NCBI GenBank assembly: GCA_026461395.1
Contig: JAPJNA010000046.1
Location: forward strand, 1-62,744
Origin: Chthoniobacterales bacterium
Lineage (GTDB): Bacteria > Verrucomicrobiota > Verrucomicrobiia > Chthoniobacterales > UBA6821
Length of the DNA: 62,744 nt
Reading direction: 5' to 3'
Shown: positions 9,894 to 17,201 of the stretch, piece by piece
How positions within the stretch are numbered: the first letter of the stretch is position 1
Layout of the letters: each line of letters opens with the position of its first letter
Position numbers and translations under genes: made by a program
Notes under the pieces: generated by a model
What the model was told of the DNA's origin: nothing
What the model saw: only the letters and a program-made list of their open reading frames with translations
The model's database searches: none

Positions 9894-10268
9894 ATGGATA
9901 TGAACCCTAAACCTCAGCAAAAAGAACTTTGTAAACTGAACGAACTGGAAAATCCCCAGGACGATTCTCTTTGGAATCTTCTTTCAGCCGACGCGAAAGC
10001 CCATCCCATAGCCCCTTCCCCCTGGTTTGCGGCACGGACTGTTGCGCAAGCCAGAGCAATAACTCAAGGCCAGTGGAATACACGTGCGCTGCTTTTACGC
10101 TGGCTGATGCCCATTCCTCTTGCAGGACTGGCTCTTGTTGCCCTGCTATTCTCGCAGGGAGTGGGACTGCAAAACCTTAAGGACTTTGGAAAACTTGGAG
10201 CCGATTCCTATGTCTCTACGGACTCGGAATTTGAGCAGCATATGGAACTCCTCTGTTTCACAGAGTAA
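9894..10268 (+). CDS. Small hypothetical membrane protein
   Basis: A 124-residue protein of unknown function. It has a charged N-terminal half (about 1-70) and a single hydrophobic segment at about 76-97 (LLLRWLMPIPLAGLALVALLF), then a short acidic tail. The layout, cytoplasmic head plus one membrane helix, resembles small anti-sigma-like or membrane-tether proteins, but no motif supports this. The ATG at 9894 is chosen because upstream in-frame starts fall in the rpoD terminator. It follows rpoD but is separated by the terminator, so it needs its own promoter. Confidence 0.5.
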   Translation: MDMNPKPQQKELCKLNELENPQDDSLWNLLSADAKAHPIAPSPWFAARTVAQARAITQGQWNTRALLLRWLMPIPLAGLALVALLFSQGVGLQNLKDFGKLGADSYVSTDSEFEQHMELLCFTE

Positions 10269-10270
10269 GA

Positions 10271-10412
10271 GTTCAGAGCGAAAGCTGAAAGCTGAAGACC
10301 GAGTCGAGGGACGAGAGTCGAGCGTCGAGAGTTGAGGGCCAGATGGGGGAAACCTCTCATCCATCCACTGAAAATAGCGAAAACTTCAGGTTTCAAGTAT
10401 CAGCTTTCATCC
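10271..10412. repeat. GCTGAAAGCTGAAG-type spacer repeats between convergent genes
   Basis: The phrase AAAGCTGAAAGCTGAAG (10281-10297) is answered on the opposite strand by CTTCAGGTTTCAAG and CAGCTTTCATCC (10384-10412). Between them lies a low-complexity run of GTCGAG-like words (10301-10338). The same words recur at 50521-50556 and 60348-60503, so this is a dispersed spacer family. No gene is visible. Confidence 0.6.
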
Positions 10413-15023: not shown

Positions 15024-16061
15024 ATGCACCAACTCTTTCATTTCCTGAATCTGAACATCATCTGGTTCATCCTCGTTGGCATCCTTTTCACGGGATACGC
15101 CATCTTGGATGGGTTCGACTTCGGCGTCGGAATCCTCCATCTCTTTGTGAAGAAGGACGAGGATCGCCGCATCCTGCTGAATTCGATTGGTCCCGTCTGG
15201 GATGGAAACGAAGTCTGGCTTGTCACCGGCGGAGGAGCTCTCTTTGCCGCCTTCCCGGGAGCCTACGCGACGGTCTTCTCAGGATTCTACGATGCCTTCA
15301 TGCTCCTGCTGGCCGCCCTGATCTTCCGAGCCGTGGCGATTGAGTTCCGCAGTAAGGAACCGGGTAAAGCCTGGAGGAGATCCTGGGATATCGCCTTCAG
15401 TGTCGCCAGTTTCCTAGCCGCGCTTCTGATCGGCGTCGCGATGGGCAATATCACCCGCGGCATCCCCCTCGACAGTCAGGGTGATTTCACCGGCACGTTC
15501 CTAGGACTCCTCAACCCCTACTCCCTCTTGCTGGGAGTCATGGTGGTCGCCCTCTTTGCGATGCACGGAGCCATCTTCCTTGTGCTGAAGACCGAAGGGG
15601 AACTCCAAGCCACGATCAAGAGCTGGGTGCCGCGGCTCATCGCCATCTTCCTTCTTTTGTTCCTAGCCTTCAATATCGCCACCTTCTTTGAGTGTCCTGA
15701 TCTTGTAGCCGTCATGCTGACCCGTCCCTACGGCTTCATCATCTTGGGATTGGATATCGTGGCTGCTATTTCCATCGGTTTGATGACCGCCAAGGGATAC
15801 GAGTTTGGTTCCTTCCTCATGTCAGCACTCACCATGGTCCTGCTCATGGCCGTGCTTGGTATCTCCTATTTCCCTCACATCGTCATGTCCATGCCTAACC
15901 CGGGCAACAGCCTGACGATCTATAACTGCGCCTCATCGCACAAGACGCTCGCCTACATGTTTATCATCGCCGTCATCGGCGTCCCGATCGTCCTGGCTTA
16001 CACTGTCAGCATCTACTGGATCTTCCGTGGCAAGACCCGACTGGGACATGTCGGCTATTGA
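15024..16061 (+). CDS. cydB: Cytochrome bd ubiquinol oxidase subunit II
   Basis: A 345-residue membrane subunit pairing with CydA. Diagnostic motifs are GYAILDGFDFGVGIL near residue 25 and NSIGPVWDGNEVWLVTGGGALFAAFP near residue 55. Eight to nine helices are predicted from hydrophobicity. The length is slightly below E. coli CydB (379), as in many non-proteobacterial enzymes. It starts at ATG 15024 with no Shine-Dalgarno site. No terminator hairpin is visible before the tRNA. Confidence 0.96.
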   Translation: MHQLFHFLNLNIIWFILVGILFTGYAILDGFDFGVGILHLFVKKDEDRRILLNSIGPVWDGNEVWLVTGGGALFAAFPGAYATVFSGFYDAFMLLLAALIFRAVAIEFRSKEPGKAWRRSWDIAFSVASFLAALLIGVAMGNITRGIPLDSQGDFTGTFLGLLNPYSLLLGVMVVALFAMHGAIFLVLKTEGELQATIKSWVPRLIAIFLLLFLAFNIATFFECPDLVAVMLTRPYGFIILGLDIVAAISIGLMTAKGYEFGSFLMSALTMVLLMAVLGISYFPHIVMSMPNPGNSLTIYNCASSHKTLAYMFIIAVIGVPIVLAYTVSIYWIFRGKTRLGHVGY

Positions 16062-16152: not shown

Positions 16153-16225
16153 GGCGGTGTAGTCCAATGGCAGAGACAAGCGACTTAAAATCGCTCCAGT
16201 GTGGGTTCGAGTCCCACCACCGCTA
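16153..16225 (+). tRNA. tRNA with anticodon UAA (Leu) but type I, short variable loop
   Basis: A full cloverleaf can be folded by eye. The acceptor 16153-16159 pairs with 16218-16224. The D-stem is GTC/GAC (16162-16164 with 16175-16177), with GG in the D loop. The anticodon stem AGCGA/TCGCT encloses loop CTTAAAA, giving anticodon TAA at 16186-16188. The variable region is only five bases (CCAGT, 16196-16200), and the T arm is GTGGG-TTCGAGT-CCCAC. The discriminator is A73, as required by leucyl-tRNA synthetase; CCA is not encoded. Bacterial tRNA-Leu normally has a long variable arm, so this molecule is anomalous. Its D and T arms look more like tRNA-Gly or tRNA-Gln bodies. Confidence 0.9.
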
Positions 16226-16303: not shown

Positions 16304-16334
16304 GGGTAAGAGTAGTACACTCTAAGGAGTGCTT

Positions 16335-17201
16335 ATGAAAACGCCTTCAAAAGCTTCCCCCCCCTCTCGGAAGGAGCGTATTGCGATCGTCGATAGCCAG
16401 GCTTCCAGCAGGATTGGACTTTCCCATTTCATCAAGAAGATCGGCCTCTGGGAGATAGCCTGGGCTAGCGCGACAGCAGAAGAGGCATTGACGAAGATCG
16501 CCGAGAATGAACCAGATCTCATGATTCTGGAAATCCAGCTTCCCGGCAAAGATGGACTCGAACTTATCAAGCACCTGATGCCTCTTTATCCCCAGCTGAA
16601 GATTCTTGTGCATTCATCCCACAGTGAGGAGTTCTATGCGGAGCGCTGCCTTCGGGCGGGGGCCATGGGCTACATGAATAAGATGGATCCCATGGGGAAT
16701 TTTGAGAATGCCGTGAAGAAGGTGCTCCGCGGAGAACTCTATCTTAATTCCCGCCTGGCATCTCACGCCCTTCACTCACTGGTCCGGCATGCGGAAACAA
16801 TGAAGGGGAACGATCATAACCTTCATAATCTCACTGACCGGGAACTTGAGGTCATGATCCTCATGGCCCAAGGTCAATCCTGTCAGGACAGTGGGGAAAA
16901 ACTGCACATCAGTCCTAGGACAGTTCAGGTGCACCGTAACAACATCAGGTTGAAGATCGGCTTGGAGAGCGCCCTGCAACTCCATGCATACGCCGTGCGT
17001 TTTTATGGAGAGGATTCCCTTTCTCAAATTCAAGACGCAGGGTCAGAACGGCCGACGCAGGAGATGGCAACTGCAACTGCCGATTTTGTCCCCAAGGACC
17101 ACTCGAAGGGAAATGGGAACGCCCCTGTGAAACTTAAGAACGATTCAGGTAAGACTGCTACTCGTCGTGATGTCAAAAGCCTCCCCTCGCAATTGAACTG
17201 A
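16335..17201 (+). CDS. NarL/FixJ-type response regulator with Glu in place of the phospho-acceptor Asp
   Basis: A 288-residue protein with an N-terminal receiver (about 14-135) and a LuxR-type helix-turn-helix (about 165-225; LTDRELEVMILMAQGQ, ISPRTVQVHRNNIRLKIG). In the receiver the usual LLD of strand 3 is ILE: codon GAA at 16530 gives E66 where phosphorylatable Asp is expected (MILEIQLPGKDG). The acidic pocket is also reduced (IVDS rather than VDD), while the Lys of NKMDP remains. This suggests a phosphorylation-independent, perhaps constitutively active regulator. The C-terminal 60 residues are polar and disordered-looking. AAGGAG at 16324-16329 fixes the ATG at 16335. No histidine kinase is adjacent. 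Confidence 0.88.
   Translation: MKTPSKASPPSRKERIAIVDSQASSRIGLSHFIKKIGLWEIAWASATAEEALTKIAENEPDLMILEIQLPGKDGLELIKHLMPLYPQLKILVHSSHSEEFYAERCLRAGAMGYMNKMDPMGNFENAVKKVLRGELYLNSRLASHALHSLVRHAETMKGNDHNLHNLTDRELEVMILMAQGQSCQDSGEKLHISPRTVQVHRNNIRLKIGLESALQLHAYAVRFYGEDSLSQIQDAGSERPTQEMATATADFVPKDHSKGNGNAPVKLKNDSGKTATRRDVKSLPSQLN

Follow-up and report, generated by a model that had tools for sequence, protein, structure and literature searches.

The window, the whole stretch of 62,744 nt analysed here, carries one tRNA gene, a tRNA-Leu with the anticodon UAA on a type I body. With a probability of about 0.88, it is an acquired short-armed elongator tRNA-Leu for UUA that has replaced the type II tRNA-Leu(UAA), that would be expressed and charged with leucine by the resident LeuRS, and that may have been transferred by phage. 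This reading is based on computed results: the gene and how well it is conserved, the seeming lack of a type II UAA gene, the family to which the gene belongs, the ancestral type II state, the single LeuRS and the occurrence of UUA at leucine positions. A short-armed form has apparently taken over as the essential UUA reader of a bacterial genus, which would be an example of a phage-type tRNA turned into the host's only copy.

The gene was identified by ARAGORN at 16153-16225 on the forward strand, with the anticodon taa at position 34, and is covered by RF00005 over all 71 model positions (Rfam; 59.5 bits, E 2.4e-10, gathering score 29). It is 73 nt long and the CCA is not encoded, as is likewise the case for several more tRNA genes of the genome. 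The acceptor stem (GGCGGUG/CACCGCU, with a G1.U72 wobble, then U8 and A9), the stem of the anticodon arm (AGCGA-CUUAAAA-UCGCU) and the T stem are fully paired, while the D stem has three pairs and a C13.A22 mismatch. The features expected of an elongator tRNA are present, these being a cloverleaf above the gathering score, U8, A14, G18G19, U55, C56 and A58, but in place of the type II variable arm of more than 10 nt there is the 5 nt loop CCAGU. The short body, the five-base variable region and A73 had been recognized in an earlier note on this DNA, made from the letters alone, and all are borne out, with UAA as the anticodon called by ARAGORN. The single-strand folding energy is unremarkable (z -1.59), and the case for the tRNA is made by the covariance model and conservation rather than by folding energy. 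No sigma-70-like promoter was found upstream of it. Judged from its sequence, the gene is a real leucine tRNA with a short body, and leucine would be the amino acid that it carries.

Table 1. Features of the tRNA-Leu(UAA) gene and its flanks, in positions of the window
Feature	Positions	Strand	Evidence
Type I tRNA-Leu(UAA) gene, 73 nt	16153..16225	+	ARAGORN, RF00005, conserved in 11 congeners
Acceptor stem 5' strand GGCGGUG, G1 pairs with U72	16153..16159	+	Fold; acceptor stem shared with Streptomyces phage Comrade
D arm GUCC-AAUGGCAG-AGAC with A14, A15, G18G19, A20a and the C13.A22 mismatch	16162..16177	+	Sequence; family signature
Anticodon UAA (34-36) in loop CUUAAAA	16186..16188	+	ARAGORN
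Variable loop CCAGU, 5 nt, replacing the type II long arm	16196..16200	+	Rfam alignment, comparison with type II
T arm GUGGG-UUCGAGU-CCCAC	16201..16217	+	Rfam match, fold
Discriminator A73	16225..16225	+	Sequence; A73 in 198 of 198 family genes among the matches listed
5' half, attachment-site core duplicated in relatives	16153..16191	+	Copies of the first 39-42 nt, 95-100% identity
cydB, upstream syntenic marker of the tRNA	15024..16061	+	Pfam PF02322; synteny
Response regulator (receiver and LuxR-type HTH), downstream syntenic marker	16329..17201	+	PF00072, PF00196; synteny

The short gene is present in 12 of the 16 genomes of the genus, that of the window included, and the 11 other congeners carry it at 96-100% DNA identity. 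Most congeners have it at one site, with cydB on one side and the same response regulator gene on the other. This conservation is near-perfect, whereas the identity of CydB within the genus is as low as 78%. The identity across 11 congeners indicates that the tRNA is not a decaying pseudogene, a possibility that the earlier note had allowed for in relatives.

The 5' half of the tRNA may have another use, as it is duplicated in three relatives (G004, G001 and G013; L395, L396 and L397). In G004 (contig C19, L395), a half copy at 2669-2707 and the full tRNA at 10245-10317 are separated by a 7.6 kb stretch that has a tyrosine integrase next to the tRNA. From this arrangement the 5' half appears to serve as a site of integration, with its copies in these relatives at the ends of integrative elements. 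That the gene is itself a non-translational tRNA, or a pseudogene retained as an integration site, would agree with such a use, but is barely credible given near-perfect conservation in a genus where CydB has diverged so far, and given that UUA occurs in dnaG and other genes and no other reader of it was found. No evidence emerged for the non-translational role that had been suggested before.

The assembly from which the window comes belongs to the Verrucomicrobiota, in the order of Ca. Xiphinematobacter (Chthoniobacterales), and is a 95% complete draft of 2.03 Mb in 80 contigs. It was searched for tRNAs throughout, and the 42 matches were classified with ARAGORN. There are long-armed tRNA-Leu genes with the anticodons UAG, CAA, CAG and AAG, and the sole UAA anticodon is that of the short gene. 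The zero-mismatch matches to the type II Leu 5' motif in this genome are the UAG, CAG and CAA genes; the AAG gene was recovered by the tRNA scan and is not among these perfect matches. Neither the tRNA search nor the 5' motif search, which address the earlier note's question whether a canonical type II gene also exists, found a long-armed tRNA-Leu(UAA) in the 95% complete draft. A type II gene split and hidden by a group I intron was also considered, and there is no RF00028 match in the genome. The short gene is apparently the only UUA reader in this bacterium.

A canonical type II tRNA-Leu(UAA) could instead lie in an assembly gap, which would make the short gene an accessory second reader of UUA, as was suggested from the window alone. 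Indeed, some expected tRNAs (Ala-UGC and Ile-GAU) are missing from the draft, all of the genomes of the genus are drafts in any one of which the type II gene could sit in a gap, and G003 has both forms. This is nonetheless very unlikely, as there is no type II UAA gene in 11 of the 12 genus genomes that have the short gene, the type II gene of the twelfth, G003, is on a contig with phage-like proteins, and the same pattern detects the type II gene in 6 of 6 genomes of the sister genus. Since no first UUA reader was found in the genome, the suggestion of a second one is not supported.

Within 44 selected open frames of the window, leucine is encoded by UUA less often than by any other of its codons, at 55 of 2122 positions, four of which are in dnaG. 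An alignment of DnaG covers 39 UUA codons from genomes that carry the short gene, and in 27 of these columns leucine is the commonest residue in the relatives with the type II gene. Leucine makes up 53% of the residues aligned in the UUA columns, compared with 52-64% for the other five leucine codons, which indicates that UUA means leucine in this genus and agrees with the assignment made in the earlier note.

Such columns make it highly improbable that the tRNA is charged with another amino acid, such as Gly or Gln, and mistranslates or reassigns UUA. The short body does resemble that of most other tRNAs, and leucine is its presumed rather than its observed amino acid. However, the D arm, at first thought to be like that of tRNA-Gly or tRNA-Gln, is of the leucine type, with the AAUGGCAGA of type II tRNA-Leu; the GGCAGA of its loop and the 13.22 mismatch are also features of tRNA-Leu, and the D arms of the genome's own tRNA-Gln and tRNA-Gly are different. 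A leucine-type D loop and A73 are found in 198 of 198 family genes among the matches listed, GGYAGA having been part of the search pattern, and a tRNA of this form is the sole UUA reader detected in the Mycobacteriaceae, which use the standard genetic code.

The family was collected with a pattern for the short form that matched at least 119 stretches in the genome collection and at least 120 in the viral collection. Among the matches listed, 198 were readable, 119 of them bacterial and 79 viral, and these are short tRNA-Leu(UAA) genes according to the ARAGORN calls listed. The pattern imposed GGYAGA, C25, the anticodon loop and the spacing of a 5 nt variable loop, and did not impose A9, C12-G23, C13, A14 or A73. 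Among the matches listed, C13 and A14 are, like A73, present in every one of the family genes, A9 is present in 190 of 198, and the G1.U72 pair in 57 of the 79 viral genes. The window tRNA has the 5 nt variable loop, A9, C12-G23, C13.A22, the GGYAGA D loop and A73 of this family.

Among the matches listed, the core of the window gene (positions 8-65) is identical at 57 of 58 positions to a gene in an actinobacterial metagenome-assembled genome (Mycetocola, L107). The short tRNA-Leu(UAA) genes of Actinobacteria (Mycolicibacterium sediminis, Nocardia, Corynebacterium, Mycetocola) share with it the 5 nt variable loop, A9, C12-G23, C13.A22 and A73, but are chromosomal genes of another phylum, usually with a GCCCCC acceptor stem and C11-G24. 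In Streptomyces phage Comrade (NC_048728) there is a short tRNA-Leu with the anticodon CAA that has the same acceptor stem, G1.U72 included, although its other stems differ. The 73 nt gene of Prochlorococcus phage P-SSM7 (GU071103) is 90.6% identical to the window tRNA over positions 5-68, but again differs in other stems; it is annotated as tRNA-Leu, codon UUA, in the public record. Single short genes annotated as tRNA-Leu in public phage records are already known.

Short-armed tRNA-Leu genes with the anticodons GAG, CAG, UAG and UAA are also found in mobile-looking arrays in two relatives from the order and in one cyanobacterium, Moorena. Arrays of 16-20 tRNAs, which include short-armed tRNA-Leu of these four anticodons and in which many tRNAs have unusual T loops (GGTGC), are present at L506 (G041:C9, 7446-10846) and L507 (G039:C90, 5235-7635). 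Among the loci L115 (384-670), L131 (1499-1655) and L364, a Rokubacteria genome has the short tRNA-Leu(UAA) after tRNA-Gly and tRNA-Cys, where leuZ is found in E. coli, and a second Gly-Cys pair of this genome has a long UAA match downstream. The order Cys-Leu(UAA) is seen in a Deltaproteobacteria genome from the same set of loci.

In the sister genus (G016-G021), a type II tRNA-Leu(UAA) is present in all six genomes, and type II genes are likewise present at the loci examined in 30 further genomes of the order. All of those seen in the order are 83-89 nt long, and in G015 and G016 the anticodon stem and the T stem are separated by 17 nt. G015 is a member of the genus itself and has the type II gene and no short one; neither form was found in G006, G007 and G011, which are 85-93% complete drafts. 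A tree of DnaG only left the root of the genus unresolved, so DnaG, CydA and CydB were joined, and in the resulting tree G015 and G011 together form the sister group of the remaining members, with a support of 100. The presence of the type II gene in the sister genus, in the genomes of the order and in the early-branching G015 indicates that the type II form is ancestral and that the swap took place within the genus. Most simply, the short gene would have been gained once in the genus and the long gene then lost.

The type II gene of G015 is near cydAB, on the opposite strand, between lexA and a DUF1844 gene, in a region that spans 1212-8436 of L399 (contig C4). Both forms of tRNA-Leu(UAA) are seen close to cydAB, the short gene in most congeners and the type II gene in G015. 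The DUF1844 locus is without a tRNA in all other genomes in which it was recovered, and no empty site can be defined as the one vacated by the type II gene.

It is unlikely that the short gene arose in place, with the genus's own type II tRNA-Leu(UAA) losing its variable arm by deletion and the D stem then being adjusted. Shortening of this kind would agree with the proximity of the G015 gene to cydAB, and with a T arm, an anticodon loop and much of a D loop that are identical to those of the sister-genus type II gene; the type II genes of the order (G016-G021, G015) have the same loop CUUAAAA, T arm, D-loop GGCAGA and A73. These genes differ, however, in their long arm, G9, G12-C23 (or U11 or other D-stem pairs) and a purine at 13. 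A9, C12-G23 and C13 are absent from the order's type II genes examined, whereas A9, C12-G23, C13.A22 and G1.U72 are common to the short-armed family of phages and Actinobacteria. The core identity to the actinobacterial gene, among the matches listed, and the acceptor stem identical to that of the Streptomyces phage tRNA also argue against deletion, as does the position of the G015 gene on the other strand and beyond lexA. Horizontal acquisition from a pre-existing short-armed family is the best reading of these sequences, and phage would be a plausible vehicle. Of the 'streamlined leucine tRNA' in the earlier note, the leucine tRNA remains, as the sole UUA reader found, and the shortening gives way to acquisition. 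A recent phage donor was considered and set aside, as two scans of the viral collection for near-exact matches to the short gene, which might have revealed a direct donor, were empty.

In the case of E. coli, LeuRS depends on A73, its main leucine identity element, and on A15-U48, G18G19 and A20a, but not on the long arm, and tRNA-Leu variants without this arm stay active with the enzyme (PMC9976931). The identity set of A73, A14, A15-U48, G18G19 and A20a is complete in the window tRNA. Wherever a near-complete gene was recovered, there is one LeuRS above the curated cut-off per genome, with identities of 79-94% between members of the genus and 66-69% against the sister genus, in keeping with vertical inheritance. 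With a single LeuRS and a tRNA that carries the E. coli identity set, the resident enzyme probably charges both body types. The acquired tRNA would then act as an ordinary elongator that reads UUA, and probably UUG too by wobble. It would have been gained once, horizontally, between cydB and the response regulator gene, after which the ancestral type II gene would have been lost. Its charging would most likely fall to the LeuRS that also handles the type II isoacceptors, and recognition may be through A73 and the D-loop/T-loop core (A14, A15-U48, G18G19, A20a), without the long arm. The genus may therefore provide a natural test of the features that LeuRS really needs.

The replacement does not appear to be confined to this genus. 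Of 101 genomes in the family of Mycolicibacterium sediminis, 98 have a pattern match, with the short form in 97 and type II in none, as judged with the pattern TTAAA...GGTTCRANYCC, which would overlook a gene with an atypical T arm. In most Mycobacteriaceae, UUA would normally be read by the short tRNA alone, and an entire actinobacterial family seemingly lives on this form. The type II body that the earlier note expected of bacterial tRNA-Leu is therefore not the rule for UAA. A wider proposal, about as likely as not, is that short-armed tRNA-Leu forms a separate mobile lineage with several anticodons (UAA, UAG, CAA, CAG, GAG), spread by phages and tRNA arrays. This lineage would have taken the place of the chromosomal type II tRNA-Leu(UAA) several times, in this genus of the Verrucomicrobiota as well as in most Mycobacteriaceae and, here and there, in other lineages. 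Escape from phage or toxin nucleases that recognize the long-armed tRNA of the host would be a possible driver.

A 2023 review has the long arm of tRNA-Leu retained everywhere but in animal mitochondria, and this statement appears to be contradicted by the short-armed bacterial genes. The mitochondrial tRNA-Leu(UUR) is also short-armed and charged by LeuRS via A73 and A14 (PMC9976931); it serves the same codon box as the window tRNA, but is organellar, with a degenerate body and a separate origin. A tRNA-Leu(TAG) with a short variable loop is mentioned in passing for a mobile tRNA cluster of Mycobacterium mucogenicum (PMC6582537). It too is short-armed, but has another anticodon and is accessory to a normal long-armed gene. 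No open-access text was found on short-armed bacterial tRNA-Leu(UAA) as such, or on the replacement of type II by it. Genes of this kind would be given the wrong label by annotation and identity classifiers for which a tRNA-Leu must have a long arm.

Three further tRNA genes of the window's genome are unusual. The long-armed tRNA-Leu at L041 (201-284; G000:C28:18215) has the anticodon AAG, not the usual GAG, and a wider reading by it needs editing of A34 to inosine. The tRNA at L031 (201-275; G000:C77:32295) combines a valine (CAC) body with the anticodon CUC (Glu) and lies about 2.1 kb from the intact tRNA-Val(CAC); it is probably a decaying copy, and otherwise a missense tRNA. At L032 (244-317; G000:C35), a divergent second tRNA-Cys(GCA) adjoins a normal tRNA-Cys.
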